DNA from: a virus | Direction: 5' to 3' (one strand) | IMG/VR virus record: IMGVR_UViG_3300035212_000253 | Location: 1-23,182 of that record | DNA: 23,182 nucleotides | Shown here: in pieces, positions 11,724 to 23,182 of the stretch | Layout of the letters: each line of letters starts with the position of its first letter | Position numbering within the stretch: position 1 is the stretch's first letter | The notes under the pieces: generated by a model | What the model was told of the DNA's origin: nothing | The model's input: only the letters and a program-made list of their open reading frames with translations | The model's database searches: none | Position numbers and translations under genes: made by a program

Positions 11724-11735
11724 GATAATAAGTTT

Positions 11736-11861
11736 TTACGTTTCGCTATTCTGTAGCTCATCAGTATGGATAACACATCCATATACGTCTTTTCTTCCTA
11801 GCCCAATGCTCACACACTGAAGACCGACCGATAAGGCTTTTAATCCCTCTGTCTCGCACAT
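11736..11861 (-). CDS. Possible first gene of the early operon (41 aa)
   Basis: A 41-codon frame starts at 11861 with MCETEGLKALSVGLQCVSIG and ends 12 bases before the next start. It is the first ATG frame of this size after the promoter at 11934-11965, giving a leader of about 65 bases. It contains three cysteines. The evidence is position and spacing only. Confidence 0.45.
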   Translation of the reverse strand: MCETEGLKALSVGLQCVSIGLGRKDVYGCVIHTDELQNSET

Positions 11862-11933
11862 ACTACCTATTTGGGTTCGTGGTTAGCTTACTTGTTGACT
11901 GCCTAACTCAGCCGTTCGTTGTTTTGAACAGGA

Positions 11934-11965
11934 CAAACGTACGGCGAGAACACACATCGAACAAA
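11934..11965 (-). promoter_or_regulatory. Early promoter of Bacteroidota type
   Basis: On the minus strand TTTG (11965-11962), a 20-base spacer and TACGTTTG (11941-11934) match the Bacteroidota -33/-7 consensus (TTTG, 17-23 bases, TAnnTTTG). Transcription would start near 11928. It is the only full match seen in the control region on this strand and faces the whole early operon. Confidence 0.72.
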
Positions 11966-11970
11966 ATAAA

Positions 11971-11999
11971 ATCGATGAAATGCACAAATAATCGATGAA
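11971..11999. repeat. ATCGATGAA direct repeats behind the early promoter
   Basis: ATCGATGAA occurs at 11971-11979 and 11991-11999, 20 bp apart, or about two helical turns. They lie just upstream of the -33 element of the early promoter, a typical place for activator binding. Confidence 0.6.
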
Positions 12000-12067
12000 C
12001 TACACTATCAGGTAATCCTATTCCTACAAACGTCGCCTTTACACCCAATCTGTAGGTGATCAACCCA

Positions 12068-12084
12068 GTATATATAGTATATAC
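12068..12084. repeat. Inverted repeat GTATATA/TATATAC
   Basis: GTATATA and TATATAC are perfect 7-bp arms around TAG. It is an A/T-rich symmetric site in the control region; it could be an operator or an easily melted spot. Confidence 0.5.
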
Positions 12085-12095
12085 GTGCGCGCGTA

Positions 12096-12139
12096 GGGGG
12101 TGAATAATGCATTTTGGAGGATTTTGGAGGGGGCGGGGG
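12096..12139 (+). other. G-run tract with tandem ATTTTGGAGG repeats
   Basis: Two tandem copies of ATTTTGGAGG (12111-12120 and 12121-12130) run into GGGGG (12129-12133) and GGGGG (12135-12139), and another G5 run lies at 12096-12100. The clustered G-runs on one strand could form a quadruplex. They are exceptional in this A/T-rich control region. Confidence 0.5.
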
Positions 12140-12330
12140 TTATTGAGCCTCTCAACGTACCTAAAAACAATTTTTATATTCACTTTTTTATTTTTTAGTC
12201 TAAATTTTAGCTACCAATTTTAAAACATGTGCGCAGTTTTACGCAAAACGATGAGCTCATTAAAAAGTTAACTCGTTGTAAACCAACAAACTAACTTTTA
12301 TCGACTCTCTGTGAGGTGTTTGTAACTATC

Positions 12331-12461
12331 TGATACTCAGCCCCGTGACAGATTTTTTTGCATCTGTGACGATTTTTAGCCCTCCGTGATAGATTTTGTG
12401 ACGATTTTCGAGAGCTAACTTGTTGAGTATCAACCCCGTGATAGATTGTGACGATTTTTTC
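12331..12461. repeat. Iteron-like repeats, candidate replication origin
   Basis: Three degenerate copies of CCGTGAYAGATT followed closely by GTGACGATTTT lie at about 12343-12377, 12384-12408 and 12436-12460. A perfect inverted pair, TGATACTCA (12331-12339) and TGAGTATCA (12424-12432), frames the first two. A run of A followed by alternating A/T (12474-12509) comes directly after. Repeats plus an A/T-rich melt region, in the divergent gap of a phage with a DnaA-domain protein, is the layout of a replication origin. It could instead be a regulator-binding array. Confidence 0.55.
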
Positions 12462-12473
12462 TTCCTAATTAGA

Positions 12474-12509
12474 GAAAAAAAAAATTATAAAATAAAATAT
12501 ATATATATA
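12474..12509. other. A/T-rich tract next to the iterons
   Basis: From 12474 to 12509 nearly every base is A or T: a run of A, then alternating TA. It would melt easily and is a candidate unwinding element if the neighbouring repeats are an origin. Confidence 0.5.
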
Positions 12510-12526
12510 GCAGTATAGGGGTACTT

Positions 12527-12682
12527 TTTCGTCACATCTGTCACCAACCTCGCGAAGCCGCACCAGTAAAGGGCTAAGAGCGTGACGTTTTTTTTTATTT
12601 TTGTCACAAAAAAAGAAAAATCGACACAGCCCCCGCCAATGCTAGGAATTTTTGTCACAGCCCCTATTGGTGCGGGTTGACA
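12527..12682. repeat. GTCAC/GTGAC motif cluster and inverted repeats
   Basis: GTGAC or its complement recurs at 12531, 12540, 12582, 12603 and 12654, continuing the motif of the iterons. CCGCACCA (12558-12565) and TGGTGCGG (12668-12675) form an 8-bp inverted pair, and CCAAT/ATTGG form another within it. No gene is visible here. Confidence 0.5.
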
Positions 12683-12690
12683 GAGGTAAG

Positions 12691-12710
12691 GTAGATTGTG
12701 TGCAGTCTAC
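12691..12710. repeat. Hairpin next to the 18-bp palindrome
   Basis: GTAGATT and AGTCTAC can pair over seven positions, one of them G-T, around a GTGTGC loop. It ends where the 18-bp palindrome begins. Confidence 0.45.
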
Positions 12711-12726
12711 CAGATAGCTATCTGGT
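12709..12726. promoter_or_regulatory. 18-bp perfect palindrome, operator candidate
   Basis: ACCAGATAGCTATCTGGT is a perfect palindrome, as expected for a dimeric regulator or other symmetric binding protein. Its right half is part of TATCTGGTGAGCA (12719-12731), which is repeated at 12754-12766. It may be an operator for late transcription. Confidence 0.6.
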
Positions 12727-12766
12727 GAGCATGTGGTTTGGTATAATGTAGCTTATCTGGTGAGCA
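12719..12766. repeat. Direct repeat TATCTGGTGAGCA, two copies
   Basis: Identical 13-base copies lie at 12719-12731 and 12754-12766, 35 bp apart, with TATAAT at 12742-12747 between them. The second copy is a half-site of the adjacent palindrome. Confidence 0.6.
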
Positions 12767-13086
12767 CATTGCATATACATATATACATAGTAGTGCTTAT
12801 CATAGTCGCTCATATATACATTCATCATCCGGTTGATACATACGTATACATTGTAGGACATCGTGCCTCCGGTGGGTTGTATCATAGGTCTACGGGGCTG
12901 CTGTCGCAGTGCGTGCAGTACGTTCTAGTGGTAGGGGTGGTGGTCAGGTTAGAAAACGCCAAAAATTTGGGACAAGTTGTTGGAAATCAGACCCCCGGTA
13001 TCGATTTTAAAGTCGGTTTCCATTCAGGGGGTACGTCGCGTGGATTCAATATATAACCCACTACCTCTACATATATAATATTTTTG
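12767..13086. other. Control region without a convincing gene
   Basis: This stretch has many ATACAT/ATATAC segments (12771-12855) and an ACCCCC/GGGGGT inverted pair (12991-12996, 13027-13032). An open frame crosses it but has no credible protein features. The rest appears to be leader or control DNA. Confidence 0.5.
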
Positions 13087-13094
13087 TATATTTG
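13087..13094 (+). promoter_or_regulatory. -7 box for the late region, possibly leaderless
   Basis: TATATTTG matches the Bacteroidota TAnnTTTG element and lies four bases before the ATG at 13099. Transcription would begin at or very near the start codon. No TTTG is found at the usual distance upstream, so it may need an activator. Confidence 0.45.
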
Positions 13095-13098
13095 CACC

Positions 13099-13236
13099 AT
13101 GGAGATAGAGATCCGCAGCATAATACACAGTGGCTTGATGGTTGGCTTCGCCTGCTATCCACCAGAGAAGGACTTCTCCTACAACGAGGTAAGTATATAT
13201 TTATTAATTATAAGCGTCCACTTCAGGTGGTATTAA
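13099..13236 (+). CDS. Conserved small phage protein (45 aa)
   Basis: It begins MEIEIRSIIHSGLMVGFACY, then PPEKDFSYNEVSIYLLIISV and ends HFRWY. The pattern IR.IIH.GLM.GF..Y.P......Y.E..IYLL...L.F.W is one I recall as very common in flavobacterial phages. No function is known. The hydrophobic IYLLIISV segment is too short for a clear membrane span. It is the first gene of the plus-strand unit. Confidence 0.75.
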   Translation: MEIEIRSIIHSGLMVGFACYPPEKDFSYNEVSIYLLIISVHFRWY

Positions 13237-13240
13237 AAAG

Positions 13241-13834: not shown

Positions 13835-15436
13835 ATGGACAACTACGGATACAGTCCCAAGGACCTTGTCTTTGAAGGTGAGGGGCGTAAGAAATTAATT
13901 GACGGTATCGCTACGATATCGAAGGCGGTGAAGAGCACGTTGGGCCCACTTGGCAGGACTGTGCTAATTGAGTCGCCTAGTCATACTCATGGTATAACTG
14001 TGACAAAGGACGGTGTGACCGTCGCAAAGTCGATCTCATTATTAGATCCAGTTGAGAACCTAGCCGTGAAGATGGTGAGGGAGGCAGCTGACAGGACGGC
14101 CACTAGTTCTGGTGACGGCACTACCACGGCGACCGTGCTAACGGAGGCCATCGTGAACAACGGCGTGGACATGATCTCAGACAGGTATAATACCACGGAG
14201 GTTCTGAGACACATCAACACGGAGACCGATGCTATCATTGGTAGATTAACAAAGCGTGCACGCAAGGTGAGTGGGAAGACTCTGCTTGACGTGGCGACAA
14301 TCTCTGCAAACAACGACAGACACATCGGCAAGATCATATCTGACACCTACTCTAAGGTTGGCAAGACTGGGATCGTGACGATCGAGGACTCACAGACCTC
14401 TGAGACTTACACTGAGGTGACCAACGGTATCAAGATCGACCGTGGTTGGACATCTAACTTATTCGTGAACAACCACAAGAAGGACGAGTGCATCATGGAC
14501 GACGTGTACGTGCTGGTGACGGACACCGAGATTAGCAGCGTGATGTCGATCGAGAACGTGCTGAAGCCTATCATTAACGGTGGAAAGAAACTTTTAATTA
14601 TTGGAAGCTGCTCACAGAACGTTGTGAACACGCTGGCAGCTAACGTTGTGCAGAAGGGGTTGAAGTTCTGTAATATTGCGCCTCCTCAGTTCGGGTACAA
14701 GCGTTCGGAACTCATGAACGACATCGCATTGGCGGTTGGTGCCAAGTACTTCTCTGAGCAGACTGGTGATGATTTGAGCTTGATCGCTATGGAGCATTTA
14801 GGACATGCGAGTAAGATCGTGGTGGGCAGAGACAGCTCGGTGATCGTGAGAGAGAGCGTGGTGAGCGATGAGGTGACCCAGAGGGTTGCACAGCTGTGGG
14901 AGCAGCACGACAATGCGGTGAAGAAGGCGGACCGTGACTTCATCAAGAGTCGCATCGCCAGCTTGACTGGTGGGATCGGTGTGATCTACGTGGGAGGTAA
15001 CTCTGACATCGAGCAGAAGGAGCTGAAGGACAGGGTGGACGACGCTGTGTGTGCGGTTCGATCTGCGATCGAGGAGGGCATCTTGCCAGGTGGTGGGTTG
15101 GCACTGTTCAACGAGTCGCTTGCGATTATTGAGGATGCGGACACCATGATCGAGGACATCGCTCCAGAGCGTTACATCGCGATGCACATTATTGCAAAGT
15201 CAATACAGGCACCCTTGTTGCAGATCATCGAAAACGCAGGAGAGGACGGCTACGAGGTGATGGAGGACTGCCCACAGGGACAGGGCTACGACGTGAAGGC
15301 TGGCGTGTACGGTGACATGTACGAGATGGGGATCATAGATCCGTTGAAGGTGACCAAGAACGCACTTAAGAATGCGGTCAGTGTGGCCACGACGATACTG
15401 AGTACCAACGCTATAGTAACCATAACACGAGCATAG
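13835..15436 (+). CDS. groEL: Phage GroEL-type chaperonin (533 aa)
   Basis: This is a full-length group I chaperonin. Near the N-terminus TLGPLGRTV and ITVTKDGVTVA carry the nucleotide-binding loop, with Asp59 matching E. coli Asp52. SSGDGTTTAT at 91-100 holds Asp94, matching Asp87. KDRVDDAVCAVRSAIEEG holds Asp403, matching the catalytic Asp398, followed by ILPGGGLAL. The ending IDPLKVTKNALKNAVSVATT matches the final equatorial helix. All three ATPase aspartates are kept, so it should be an active folding machine. The apical domain (about 195-380) is much more divergent. The usual GGM-repeat tail is absent. A groES-like gene follows with no gap. Phage chaperonins are known in some large phages and presumably fold virion or other phage proteins. 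Confidence 0.95.
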   Translation: MDNYGYSPKDLVFEGEGRKKLIDGIATISKAVKSTLGPLGRTVLIESPSHTHGITVTKDGVTVAKSISLLDPVENLAVKMVREAADRTATSSGDGTTTATVLTEAIVNNGVDMISDRYNTTEVLRHINTETDAIIGRLTKRARKVSGKTLLDVATISANNDRHIGKIISDTYSKVGKTGIVTIEDSQTSETYTEVTNGIKIDRGWTSNLFVNNHKKDECIMDDVYVLVTDTEISSVMSIENVLKPIINGGKKLLIIGSCSQNVVNTLAANVVQKGLKFCNIAPPQFGYKRSELMNDIALAVGAKYFSEQTGDDLSLIAMEHLGHASKIVVGRDSSVIVRESVVSDEVTQRVAQLWEQHDNAVKKADRDFIKSRIASLTGGIGVIYVGGNSDIEQKELKDRVDDAVCAVRSAIEEGILPGGGLALFNESLAIIEDADTMIEDIAPERYIAMHIIAKSIQAPLLQIIENAGEDGYEVMEDCPQGQGYDVKAGVYGDMYEMGIIDPLKVTKNALKNAVSVATTILSTNAIVTITRA

Positions 15437-15694
15437 ATGCAACCAATAAACAAATACATAGTAATAGAGTCGATAGAGGAGCAGGTGGCCACGTCGTATG
15501 GACTGATGATGACATCGTCCGACACTGAGATGCTGCGCTACAAGAAGGGTCGAGTGATCAAGCCTGGCACGAACGTAGAGTGCGTGAAGGACGGTGACGA
15601 GATCTACTACGACAAGAACGCTGGATTCACGATGATGCTTGACGGTAACACGTACACCATTATCTTGGAGAGGGACGTAGTGGTAGTCCTCTAG
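15437..15694 (+). CDS. groES: Short GroES-type co-chaperonin (85 aa)
   Basis: The start MQPINKYIVIESIEE matches the first strand of GroES (xxPLxDRVIVK). SYGLMMTSSDTEM (about 20-32) lies where GroES has its mobile loop with the GIVL contact to GroEL. KKGRVIKPG then matches STRGEVLAVG, followed by VKDGDEIYYDKNAG for the GD.V.F...G strand, and the end [10 protein letters not shown] for the final strand. At 85 residues it is shorter than GroES (about 97) and lacks most of the roof loop. It starts directly after the groEL stop. The two form a self-contained chaperonin pair. Its 3' end overlaps the convergent gene by 35 bases. Confidence 0.85.
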   Translation: MQPINKYIVIESIEEQVATSYGLMMTSSDTEMLRYKKGRVIKPGTNVECVKDGDEIYYDKNAGFTMMLDGNTYTIILERDVVVVL

Positions 15695-16223
15695 AGTTAC
15701 GGTACTTTTTAATATGAGGCTGGTCGGAGAATTTTTCTTCTTCCAGCTTCTTTAGTTTACGCTTCTCCTCGTTGTTGCGGTTCATTGTCTTGATGATCCT
15801 GCGGTTCATGTTGTCGGAGTACGACGCCTTGTTGCTAAAGATTGGGTTATGGGCGGAGCTCTCTGAGATCGACTCTAGGTTGTTGAGCTTTCGATATATG
15901 GTGCTGACCATCTTCTTGCCCTTGAACGATAGCTCGTACATGGCGGCCTCGTGTCCTATGCGGTCTCTCCACTTTATGATCCAACCGTCCTGCATGAGTC
16001 GTGAGAACCTCTTCTTGTCCCACGGGAATATGCACTCGTACTCTTTGAAGTCTGCACGAGAGAACAGACGCTCTGTGTATAGGAAGAGCATCATGTCAAG
16101 GTCGGCTGTGTATACGCCATACTTACGGGTTGCCCAGTACTTTACGATGCGCCAGTACTTCAGGTAGTCGTCCTTTGGCTCTATCCTGTCGTAGTATTTT
16201 CTGATTTTAGTAGTAAAATTCAT
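15660..16223 (-). CDS. Winged-helix-like regulator candidate (187 aa)
   Basis: This is the only minus-strand gene in the late region. Residues about 18-110 look like a winged helix: helices around [19 protein letters not shown] and [18 protein letters not shown], a possible recognition helix [18 protein letters not shown], then a wing [19 protein letters not shown]. This recalls MarR-like folds and proteins I remember from flavobacterial phages. The C-terminal 70 residues are basic and probably disordered. It could control late transcription or its own divergent promoter pair. Start is the ATG at 16223, about 16 bases after the likely transcription start. Confidence 0.7.
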
Positions 16224-16970: not shown

Positions 16971-17263
16971 TGGCAGTAGACAAGAGCAAGATGAAGTGCA
17001 ACTCACCAGTTGCCTCAACAAGGCCAGGGAAGAAGAAGATGGTGAAGGCGTGTTCTAACGGACAGGAGAAGCTTATACACTTCGGAGCCAAGGGATACGG
17101 CAACAACTACTCGGCAGCTGCTCGTAAGAGCTTCAAGGCTAGACACAGCTGCGAGACAGCTACAGACAAGCTTACAGCTCGTTACTGGGCGTGTAAGAAT
17201 CTGTGGGCTGGACCTGGTGGATCGACAACATCGAGCCCAAGTAATCGTAAAGGAAAGTACTGA
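16970..17263 (+). CDS. Conserved phage protein (97 aa)
   Basis: It contains KMKCNSPVASTRPGKKKMVK, a central HFGAKGYGNNYSAAARKSFK, RHSCETATDKLTARYWACKN and LWAGPGG. The GAKGY.NNYS..ARK.FKARH.C...LTARYWAC..LW pattern is one I recall in phage and some environmental sequences, of unknown function. Cysteines at 10, 28, 61 and 75 with His59 could bind zinc. It overlaps neighbours by one base at each end. Confidence 0.7.
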   Translation: MAVDKSKMKCNSPVASTRPGKKKMVKACSNGQEKLIHFGAKGYGNNYSAAARKSFKARHSCETATDKLTARYWACKNLWAGPGGSTTSSPSNRKGKY

Positions 17264-17421
17264 TGGAATCAAAGGGACTAGGAGATACAATAGATAAGAT
17301 AACTACCGCAACTGGAATAAAGGCTGTGGTTAATGGCGTAGCCAAGGTCACAAAGAAGGAGTGCGGCTGCGCAAGAAGAAGAGAACAACTAAACAAAAAA
17401 TACCCATATGCAAGCAAATAA
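17263..17421 (+). CDS. Small protein with CGC motif (52 aa)
   Basis: A 52-codon frame starts MESKGLGDTIDKITTATGIK and ends with KKECGCARRREQLNKKYPYA. The order GLGDTI.K.T.ATGIK followed by C.C..R...LN..YPY is common, from memory, in short phage proteins upstream of virion genes. Function is unknown. It overlaps the next gene by 14 bases. Confidence 0.7.
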   Translation: MESKGLGDTIDKITTATGIKAVVNGVAKVTKKECGCARRREQLNKKYPYASK

Positions 17422-19452: not shown

Positions 19453-22400
19453 ATGACAAAGATATCAATATATAGTAAGGACGTAGACGTTAGGGGTAAC
19501 GACAGGTGGATCGGTTCAGACGCACAGAATCAGAACAGGACCAAGAACTTTACCCCAGACAATGTCGCTGTTTACTTCAACGAGAACCAGGTGATAGACC
19601 TAGGCGTGGAGCTTAGATACTTCTATGACACTCTTGATCCGTTACAACAGAGGGTGTATGGTTCGATCACGTTCGAGACAGAGATAGGGCCTCAGGTGAA
19701 CTTCTCTGCGATATCAACGTTCGTACTTAGTAAGTATACAATGGGTCATACTGACGTGAGCCAGTTCCTTGACTTCTTGATAGGATCAAACGTATTACTG
19801 TCTAGAGCGAACAATATTAATATGTTCGGTTACTATAAGATAGACAACATAGAGCCTTACCTACCAGATCCAAACTTCTTCGTAGTTACACTTACTTTTG
19901 ATGCTGGTAACGGATACATGAAGGAGGACGAGGACTACTTCATATCACTTGTTCAGTTTGAGCAGACAATACCAGAGGTACCTACAAAGACTTCTGACCT
20001 TATAAACGACGGTGAGGATGGCGTTCATCCGTTCATAACAGCTGAGGACGTTCCAACTCCTACATTACAGAGTGTAACAGATGCTGGTGATACAACCACA
20101 ACCGCTGTATATTTAAACGGTGGTGCTGTTGTAAATGGTTTTGACACAACATCTATAGTTGATTCATCATATATAGTTTCATCAAACACAACAACTAACT
20201 CTAGTGCTTATATTGATTCAACAGGTATTTTATCTTTATCTGCCGATGGAGTTAACTTTGGTAGTTTAGCAGTAAATGATATAACAAGTAGTGTACAATT
20301 ACAATTCCCAGACAAAGTAGCTGGTACTTATACAATAGCAACAACTGATGATACTACATTGCAAGGCGTAGTAGATAATGGCAATACAGTAACTGGGACT
20401 GGTGGGTATAAAAGCACTTTAGATGGGGGTGATTTTTTTGTAGAAAACACTATACTTGGTACAAAATTAAGAATAACCGGAGATGGTATAGTTTATTTTA
20501 CCAATTTAGCAGGAAACACTACGCAGTTATCTAATTATGGAATAACTAGTAGTAGTGTTAATTTTCAATTTCCAAACAAAGCAAGTGGACCAGTATACAC
20601 ATTAGCAACAACTGCTGATATTCCATCTGTTACAGGATTCGTACCTTATACAGGCGCAAATCAGAATGTTAACTTAGGTGAATACGAACTAAAAGCAGGT
20701 CAACTCTCTTTAGATACTTCTCCTACGGGCACTGCTGTAGTTGGTACAACAAGATGGAACGACACAATCGGTAGCTCCGAGACCACTTTAAAGGGAGGTA
20801 CAGTTATCTTAAAAAACGGAGTTGACCTAGTTGCTAGAGTAGTAAATAAGGTTACTCCTAATGCAACATTGACAAAGGCAGCATATCAAGCTGTAAGAGT
20901 TAGTGGTGCTCAAGGACAAAGATTAGCCGTTGCATATGCGCAAGCAAACAACGATAATAATTCAGCGGATACAATAGGTTTAGTTTGCGAAACAATACCG
21001 ACTAACCAAGAGGGTTTTATTATGACAGTTGGGCAGTTGGAAGACATAAACACAACAGGTAGCTTACAGGGCGAAACTTGGGTAGATGGTAACGTATTGT
21101 ATCTATCTCCTACTACGCCTGGTGCTCTAACAAATATCAAGCCAACAGGACTTACGGGACATATTGTTGTGATGGGATATGTGGAATATGCTCACGCAGT
21201 ACACGGTAAGATTTACGTTAAGATTATGAACGGGTGGGAGCTTGATGAGCTGCATAACGTTTTTATAAATTCGCCTACAAATAATCAAGGTTTATTTTAC
21301 GACTCAGCCGATTCACTTTGGAAAAACGAAACGATTGAAAGCGCATTAGGATACACACCGCAACAACAACTCGTAAGTGGCACAAACATCAAAACTATAA
21401 ATGGTAATTCAGTTTTAGGAAGTGGCGATTTGACTATAAGCGGCTCAAATATATATAATGCTGATGGCACGTTAACAAGCGCTCGAACTTTAACAAGCGG
21501 AGGATTTCCTTTAACTTTTACAGGTAGCAATACTGCTGCGAGTGGAATATCAAGAGGTTTAAATTTAACGCATACTTTAGTAGCCGCTGCAAATAGTAAT
21601 GTACTTGTGGGTTTAGATTTACGACCAACTTTTACAAATGGAGCATTTACAGGGGTTAGTAATTTTGGATTAAGAATAGAACAAGGAACGCAAGCAGGAA
21701 ATAATACTTCAAATATAGTTTTTAAAAGAACTGATGTAACAAGTGTTGCTACAATAGGTTATCAAGGTTCGGGATGGAACATTTTTGGAATTTGGGGCGA
21801 AGCTACATTTACAACAACAAACGCGCCCGATTTAGGAGTATTTTCAGGAACAGGACATACTTATGTTAAAAACAATTTATTAATTGGCACGACTTCAAAC
21901 GCAGGCTTTAAATTAGACGTAAACGGCACGGCGAGGGTGCAGGGGAATGCTACAATTATTTCTGCAAATCCTGTTTTAAATATTAATGTAACAGGCAATA
22001 ATCAATCATCAGCTCTTTATTTAAATGCTTTAGATGGCACTCCAAGAGCGGGTATTTTAGCAAATTTAGCATCGGGAGAAATTCGTTATTTTGTAGGAAC
22101 AGGAGGTTATTTTCCTACTTTTTATTCTAATAATTTAGAAAGGATGCGTATTGCTACAACAGGCAACGTACTAATCAATACCACAACCGACGCAGGGTTT
22201 AAATTAGACGTAAACGGCACGGCGAGGGTTCAAGCACAAAGCGCTTTATCTACCGATACAACTTTTAGAGTTAGGAATAGTGCTGATAATGATAATTTAT
22301 TTGATGTAAGAAATAATGGGGTAGCGACTGTAAAAGGTTTAGCACAAGTTATTTCATTTAATTTAACCGATAGAGTATATATAGGGTCAAACGTAAATAA

Positions 22401-22698
22401 TAACGTAATAGGAGTAAATAGCGATAATAAATTATTTATTAGAAGTAATGGAAATCTAAATATAATCACAGTAGCAAATAGCACAGTTATTGTTACTGAT
22501 TCAATAAGTCCTGCTTTGACTCCAAGTTCAAAACTAACAGTTGAAAGTACAACGCAAGGCTTCCTACCACCGAGAATGACAACTACGCAAAAGAACGCAA
22601 TAGCTACACCTGCTGTTGGATTAATTATATTTGATGTAACTTTGAATAAATTATGTGTAAGAGGAGCTTCGGCTTGGGAAACAGTAACATCGTTATAA
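19453..22698 (+). CDS. Tail fibre / receptor-binding protein (1081 aa)
   Basis: The N-terminal 190 residues (from MTKISIYSKDVDVRGNDRW) look like a virion-attachment domain. Residues about 210-400 hold two related units (SSVQLQFPDKVAGTYTIATT and SSVNFQFPNKASGPVYTLAT). Residues 400-630 contain VPYTGANQNVNLGEYELKAG and an all-beta domain. Further on come YTPQQQLVSGTNIKTINGNS, then NVLIGTTSNAGFKLDVNGTA-type units near 810-830 and 905-930, and a C-terminal GFLPPRMTTTQKNAI segment near 1036 that is typical of the fibre tips of Bacteroidota phages. It probably recognises the host surface. Base composition becomes clearly A/T-richer from about 20100, so the distal part was probably exchanged. Confidence 0.85.
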   Translation: MTKISIYSKDVDVRGNDRWIGSDAQNQNRTKNFTPDNVAVYFNENQVIDLGVELRYFYDTLDPLQQRVYGSITFETEIGPQVNFSAISTFVLSKYTMGHTDVSQFLDFLIGSNVLLSRANNINMFGYYKIDNIEPYLPDPNFFVVTLTFDAGNGYMKEDEDYFISLVQFEQTIPEVPTKTSDLINDGEDGVHPFITAEDVPTPTLQSVTDAGDTTTTAVYLNGGAVVNGFDTTSIVDSSYIVSSNTTTNSSAYIDSTGILSLSADGVNFGSLAVNDITSSVQLQFPDKVAGTYTIATTDDTTLQGVVDNGNTVTGTGGYKSTLDGGDFFVENTILGTKLRITGDGIVYFTNLAGNTTQLSNYGITSSSVNFQFPNKASGPVYTLATTADIPSVTGFVPYTGANQNVNLGEYELKAGQLSLDTSPTGTAVVGTTRWNDTIGSSETTLKGGTVILKNGVDLVARVVNKVTPNATLTKAAYQAVRVSGAQGQRLAVAYAQANNDNNSADTIGLVCETIPTNQEGFIMTVGQLEDINTTGSLQGETWVDGNVLYLSPTTPGALTNIKPTGLTGHIVVMGYVEYAHAVHGKIYVKIMNGWELDELHNVFINSPTNNQGLFYDSADSLWKNETIESALGYTPQQQLVSGTNIKTINGNSVLGSGDLTISGSNIYNADGTLTSARTLTSGGFPLTFTGSNTAASGISRGLNLTHTLVAAANSNVLVGLDLRPTFTNGAFTGVSNFGLRIEQGTQAGNNTSNIVFKRTDVTSVATIGYQGSGWNIFGIWGEATFTTTNAPDLGVFSGTGHTYVKNNLLIGTTSNAGFKLDVNGTARVQGNATIISANPVLNINVTGNNQSSALYLNALDGTPRAGILANLASGEIRYFVGTGGYFPTFYSNNLERMRIATTGNVLINTTTDAGFKLDVNGTARVQAQSALSTDTTFRVRNSADNDNLFDVRNNGVATVKGLAQVISFNLTDRVYIGSNVNNNVIGVNSDNKLFIRSNGNLNIITVANSTVIVTDSISPALTPSSKLTVESTTQGFLPPRMTTTQKNAIATPAVGLIIFDVTLNKLCVRGASAWETVTSL
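21907..21938. repeat. 32-bp direct repeat in tail fibre, copy 1
   Basis: It encodes FKLDVNGTAR-V and is identical to 22198-22229, 291 bp downstream and in the same reading frame. Recombination between them would remove or add 97 residues without a frameshift. Confidence 0.9.
22198..22229. repeat. 32-bp direct repeat in tail fibre, copy 2
   Basis: Identical to 21907-21938. Perfect identity over 32 bases, including wobble positions, shows recent duplication or conversion. Confidence 0.9.
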
Positions 22699-22699
22699 T

Positions 22700-23182
22700 A
22701 TGACAAGTAGTGGAATTTATAAAATATCTTGGGAAAATAATCCATACTATTATTATGGACAAGCAGTAAATTTTAAAAAAAGAAAATCAACGCATTTAGA
22801 ATCAATGAAAAAGGGTAAACACAAAAACCCTAAAATGCAGTCAATTTATAATAAATATGGAGATTTTATATTTGAACCAATTGCATATGTTAAATCTGAA
22901 GAACTTAATAATTTAGAGCAAAAATATTTAGATGAGTATTTTAATGATATTTTTTGTTGTAATCTTTGTCCAAATGCATTTAGCTCAAAAGGACGTGTAT
23001 ATTCTGAAAAAGCATTAGAATCAATAAGAGAAGCAGCAAAAAATAGAACTAAGTTAATTGGCGATATGAATCCATTTTATGGAAAAAAGCACACAGAAGA
23101 ATCAAAAAGAAAAATTTCAGAATCAAGAACAGGTAAGAAATTTCCAAAGTTATCAGAATCAAAGAAAGGAACTATAGTATCT
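22700..23182 (+). CDS. GIY-YIG homing endonuclease with NUMOD3, 3' end cut off
   Basis: At least 161 residues are in the window and the frame runs off the end. Residues 4-10 (SGIYKIS) carry GIY; YYYYGQ at 16-21 takes the place of YIG, and the KKRKSTHLE segment after it fits the family. LEQKYLDEYF near 72-81 supplies the metal-binding glutamate (Glu73). Residues 121-142 (GDMNPFYGKKHTEESKRKIS) are a NUMOD3 DNA-binding repeat. It is free-standing, starts one base after the tail fibre stop, and is strongly A/T-rich, all signs of a mobile gene. It would cut a target in related phages and spread its own region. Confidence 0.85.
   Translation, partial: MTSSGIYKISWENNPYYYYGQAVNFKKRKSTHLESMKKGKHKNPKMQSIYNKYGDFIFEPIAYVKSEELNNLEQKYLDEYFNDIFCCNLCPNAFSSKGRVYSEKALESIREAAKNRTKLIGDMNPFYGKKHTEESKRKISESRTGKKFPKLSESKKGTIVS

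Follow-up and report, generated by a model that had tools for sequence, protein, structure and literature searches.

Does a phage that carries both groEL and groES possess a folding machine of its own, and how far has that machine departed from the bacterial one? The question was raised by a 23,182-bp stretch of viral DNA (IMG/VR record IMGVR_UViG_3300035212_000253; hereafter, the window), probably a fragment because its relatives are ~60 kb long. Here, groEL (13835..15436; 533 aa), encoding a group I chaperonin, is followed by groES (15437..15694; 85 aa), stop codons included and both on the plus strand, as are all chaperonin features given below. The complete gene pair described in the original prediction was confirmed, both ORFs being exact to the base and matched by Pfam and PHROG profiles. 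GroEL matched PF00118 (Cpn60_TCP1) over residues 28-529 (E 2e-58; 198.6 bits, cut-off 34.3), PHROG groEL (E 7e-129), and NF009487 (487 bits, cut-off 352), and fell below the cut-off of the GroEL equivalog TIGR02348 (461.5 vs. 582.1 bits). Its AF2 model (pLDDT 84) adopted the three-domain fold, with a Foldseek match to GroEL/Hsp60 at E 5e-48 and TM ~0.8. The top Foldseek match, heptameric EcHsp60 (7v9r), was set aside as evidence of a single ring, because the model comprises one chain and the ranking was driven by conformation. GroES matched PF00166 (Cpn10) over residues 2-84 (E 4e-10; 40.1 bits, cut-off 21.1) and a PHROG (E 4e-12), and its AF2 model (pLDDT 92.8) contained the Cpn10 beta-barrel (Foldseek vs. 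cpn10, E 3e-6).

Residues needed for ATP hydrolysis were retained. We compared GroEL alignment columns between 88 members of the window's phage clade and 32 cellular sequences. As predicted, D59, D94, and D403 are the catalytic aspartates, aligning with E. coli D52, D87, and D398, and these were invariant in the clade (87/87 plus one gap, 88/88, and 88/88, respectively). In entropy, ATP-site columns ranked at percentile 9 for the clade and 6 for cells, and the motif GDGTTT (residues 93-98; 14111..14128) was near-invariant in the clade and uninterrupted in the window. The intra-ring allosteric residues R197, D155, and R395 were also retained, with E386 replaced by Asp. The GGM tail, reported missing at the outset, was indeed absent from all 88 clade GroELs, the window's included, and present in 29 of 32 cellular ones. 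The apical domain, at 30% identity to that of E. coli, is truly divergent, as had been claimed, but only moderately so (equatorial domain, 34-38%; intermediate domain, 38-50%). Across 200 close pairs, median dN/dS was 0.042 for groEL and 0.065 for groES, such strong purifying selection indicating that both proteins are maintained.

Phage chaperonins had been presumed rare, a premise that did not survive: GroEL matches occurred in 251 of 50,697 GenBank phage records, and the prevalence of phage-encoded GroELs has been cited before (PMC7185714, PMC8390657). In IMG/VR, scanning with a single sequence recovered 25 loci of 60-80% identity, and scanning with an alignment gave at least 563 confirmed relatives, of which the best 80 (each 60% identical or more) were retained. 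In the trees, the window fell in a phage-only clade (support 100/100), whose nearest neighbors were Maribacter phage Panino and Flavobacterium phage elemo (100/97). Cellulophaga phage Calle_1 (98/96) and Flavobacterium phage immuto (97/94) joined in turn, and the whole set grouped with the Bacteroidota cells (99/99); several branches are long, and the arrangement below the clade is less certain. GroELs of E. coli and of Vibrio phages lay outside the Bacteroidota-phage grouping. The best PDB sequence match of the window GroEL was a reconstructed ancestral Fibrobacteres-Chlorobi-Bacteroidetes chaperonin. These trees indicate that the clade arose long ago from a Bacteroidota GroEL and has since evolved separately in phages. 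Recent copying of the pair from a host operon, for which nothing beyond general homology speaks, is rejected by the trees and barely credible given 33-41% identity to cellular Bacteroidota GroELs, a reversed gene order, and a fully supported separate clade. The host is most likely a member of the Bacteroidota, since the phage group branches among them and both elemo and Panino infect Flavobacteriia. No prophage was found in a single-protein scan of genome contigs, which returned one cellular Bacteroidota GroEL.

Given the intact ATPase site, the purifying selection, and the absence of recent host ancestry, the pair is likely to be functional, dedicated to the phage, and adapted to it, much as the original prediction of an autonomous chaperonin proposed. 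A phage of a Bacteroidota host would thus encode a complete ATP-driven folding chamber, in which phage proteins that are still unfolded would be bound by the GroEL ring and the ring capped by GroES from the same phage.

Gene order in this lineage was distinctive. groEL precedes groES in the window clade, elemo, and Panino, and groES precedes groEL in Bacteroidota cells and immuto; one flip on the branch to the window clade, elemo, and Panino explains this distribution. In the window, the groEL stop codon abuts the groES start (TAG/ATG), so the direct coupling noted earlier holds there, but many relatives carry small genes between the two. As the gap varies among relatives, direct translational coupling was rejected as a defining trait. 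The intervening cargo included, named by eye, genes resembling AsnRS (L144), a 2OG-Fe oxygenase (L107), and an HNH endonuclease (L146). Downstream position of groES was nonetheless near universal (105 of the 107 loci scored; one of the remaining two is truncated by the contig end). Beyond groES, a convergent gene of 187 aa (PHROG 17028; 15663..16223, minus strand), by eye a putative winged-helix-like regulator, overlaps groES by 32 bp at its 3' end. A homolog lay downstream of groES on the opposite strand at every locus having both chaperonin genes (105/105, equivalent to ~97 distinct records as the two scans overlap, with clade loci collected by GroEL alone). For comparison, thirteen other genes between 13241 and 22698 were scored; two reached 98% of the loci long enough to contain them, against 0-53% for the others. 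The two were a 52-aa gene (17263-17421) and one for a 1081-aa fibre-like protein (19453-22698).

The three-gene block extended to cultured phages. In elemo, where the whole block is flipped with respect to the late genes, groES has a homolog of the 187-aa gene as its neighbor (E 2e-19, 32% identity); in Panino, the homolog (46% identity) lies ~1.1 kb beyond groES. Calle_1 and Cellulophaga phage phi38:1 carry weak homologs, so strict specificity of this gene for chaperonin loci was unsupported; because the Calle_1 copy is ~38 kb from groEL, its link to the chaperonin genes is not absolute.

Both the lid and the groove that receives it were altered. GroES was described as shortened, and is so because the bacterial roof hairpin is deleted: at its site (residues 44-54; 15566..15598) the alignment lacked the hairpin and the AF2 model had no strand. 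The mobile loop region (residues 14-37; 15476..15547) is 2 aa longer than in E. coli and contains G22-L-M-M and R34-Y35. Its hydrophobic core, G-[LI]-x-[LM], was kept throughout the clade, with G22, Leu or Ile at 23, and Leu or Met at 25 each in 84 of 84 sequences; R34-Y35, following the loop, was equally invariant (84/84). On the GroEL side, E240 (14552..14554) replaces E. coli L234 of the lid- and substrate-binding groove, and all but one of the 88 clade members had Glu at this position. V263 and V264 were mostly Ala, and L237 and F204 invariant. The changes L234E, V263A, and V264A reduce the hydrophobic surface of the groove and count against the core claim of a functional folding pair.

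As groove and lid changed together, we favor, with some reserve, the phage's own GroES over the host's as the partner of the phage GroEL. Mixed machines, with phage GroES on host GroEL as in T4 or host GroES on phage GroEL, could draw on a mobile-loop core (G-L-L-L) that is still GIVL-like and on the precedent of T4 gp31 (PMC6318259). We nevertheless regard them as unlikely: groEL and groES co-occur (105 of 107 loci scored), the groove residues are unlike those of all cellular GroELs compared, and gp31 serves the host's GroEL, whereas here a phage GroEL is also encoded. The T4 protein is still instructive for the lid of the phage's own pair. Like the window GroES, gp31 has no roof loops and an extended mobile loop, a build thought to help it fold the 56 kDa gp23 (PMC6318259). 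By analogy, a roofless lid with a longer loop may offer large clients a chamber that is taller or open, in the way that gp31 serves gp23, a proposal for which we see the chances as evenly balanced. As a structural match to the window GroES, gp31 was weak (E 0.011).

The residues through which E. coli GroEL rings pair were lost in the clade. For this comparison we relied on ring-ring contact and groove residue lists that we take to be established GroEL knowledge, rather than on a computed structure. The E. coli contact K105-A109 corresponds to residues 112-116 (14168..14182), with Asp at both ends, and R452, E461, S463, and V464 correspond to L, D, Y, and E within residues 462-474 (15218..15256; clade entropy percentiles 81-97). 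Across the six contact columns (K105, A109, R452, E461, S463, and V464), the window thus reads D, D, L, D, Y, and E, and these columns ranked at entropy percentile 89 in the clade vs. 44 in cells. Column comparison revealed a similar loss in the chaperonin of phage AR9, a single ring by cryo-EM (PMC9598537), and likewise in the GroEL of phage EL, whose double rings come apart with ATP (PMC7185714). Because EL lost the contacts yet pairs, their loss is no proof of single rings. We put about even weight on clade rings that lack stable E. coli-like pairing, existing either as single rings or as loose pairs.

An appreciable, if lesser, chance attaches to an ordinary double-ring mechanism, whereby the contacts were swapped for another interface and the protein works like E. 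coli GroEL. The pairing of EL rings after the same loss (PMC7185714) and the conserved fold and intra-ring residues favor such an arrangement; however, the contact columns had acquired no new consensus, being among the most variable positions of the clade, and acidic residues stood where Ala and Val are packed. Rings without stable pairing would, like those of EL, OBP, and AR9, be single or separating (PMC7185714, PMC9598537).

Among known systems, the pair is closest in kind to those of elemo (Elemovirus, NC_055852; a podovirus of ~60 kb) and Panino (PP540027), both cultured, with which it shares a phage genome, the groEL-groES order, a common GroEL clade, a short GroES, and the nearby convergent 187-aa gene homolog. 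Their GroELs are only ~35-36% identical to that of the window, and elemo GroEL, unlike the window clade, retains L234 and R452. Greater similarity was found in MW202828, an uncultured 60.9-kb podovirus from Manatee Spring (GroEL 57%, GroES 45% identity), with the same order and the same convergent gene (45% identity); its annotated groEL and groES overlap by 44 bp, unlike those of the window. T4 gp31 caps host GroEL and is not accompanied by a phage GroEL, whereas in the window clade phage GroEL accompanies groES. EL and AR9, although similar in having lost the ring-ring contacts, encode GroELs only ~23-26% identical to that of the window and, like OBP, have large genomes. A need for a co-chaperonin is unreported for EL, OBP, and AR9, and no groES was found near the EL or AR9 chaperonin gene; the window, in contrast to this type, has one. 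Virioplankton GroELs were reportedly found to be widespread and divergent by Marine et al. 2017 (ISME J), where gene order is said to follow GroEL phylogeny. To our knowledge, the ring-contact, groove, and roof changes of the clade were not reported there.

When and on what the machine would act can be approached through its surroundings. The chaperonin genes start a rightward arm that in MW202828 leads to terminase, portal, and structural genes, so the folding machine probably acts late in infection. In that phage, terminase, portal, and a likely capsid protein start ~9 kb downstream of groES, on the same strand and not adjacent. Relatives encode, two genes after portal, a structural protein of 452-479 aa (~50 kDa), which makes a gp23-like folding need possible; such ~50 kDa products of the late module's structural genes might conceivably be among the clients. 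The window itself has no recognised genes at ~11730-13240, between leftward replication and rightward late genes, a possible origin or promoter region. Direct evidence of expression concerns one relative only, phi38:1, which sits near a basal branch of the window's phage group; mass spectrometry detected its GroEL both in infected cells and in free virions (PMC13288928). Its presence in virions could mean that the protein is retained chiefly as a part of the virion, or as some other non-folding ATPase. We find this very improbable: GroES is similarly strongly selected and keeps its mobile loop, and an abundant chaperonin is likely to be carried over into virion preparations. A dedicated folding pair remains our preferred reading.

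The ATP motif of GroEL was also the site of an insertion in some phages. In the GroEL of one close relative (L024), GDG and TTT are separated by an in-frame insertion of 328 aa (L024:7017-8000), with 30% GC vs. 43% in its flanks; in the near twin of L024, L014, the motif is uninterrupted. The insertion matched intein-bearing terminases in PHROGs (2e-31) and a LAGLIDADG domain just below the Pfam curated cut-off. Searching IMG/VR with it yielded twelve full-length members (L024 and L159-L169), all in GroEL at GDG/TTT, of 321-339 aa, starting with PQP and ending with THN, most with LAGLIDADG motifs. All twelve had Trp, Cys, and Thr (WCT) at the class 3 positions (class as defined in PMC5050341) and, judged by these sequence features, are predicted class 3 inteins. 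They were spread over several separate GroEL lineages, and in every pair compared were more alike (33-63% identity) than the GroELs that carry them (25-55%), a pattern consistent with homing. Only distant copies (at most 33%) were found in named phages, with terminase and helicase, among others, in the best matches listed, and no intein match above 34% occurred in 395 Bacteroidota genomes. A literature search found no earlier report of a GroEL intein. At the end of the window, an ORF (22700-23182) that runs off the edge begins, by eye, like a GIY-YIG homing endonuclease.

The window pair is a distinct variant of a known and common kind of phage-encoded groEL-groES. A more far-reaching picture, which we advance tentatively and hold at somewhat short of even, is that this lineage turned single-ring and keeps a dedicated roofless lid, resembling mitochondrial Hsp60-Hsp10 but independently evolved, with lid and groove co-adapted through E240 and R34-Y35, and with an ATP motif at which a family of class 3 inteins, apparently specific to phage GroEL, homes. 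With such inteins, the ATP site of a chaperonin would itself be a place of protein splicing. Structural work on phage chaperonins has so far concerned EL, OBP, and AR9, which come from large phages and are lidless, so a compact lidded pair is a tractable system and offers a way to ask what the second ring and the GroES roof do. The clade is abundant, and the cultured phages elemo and Panino permit knock-outs and the identification of clients.
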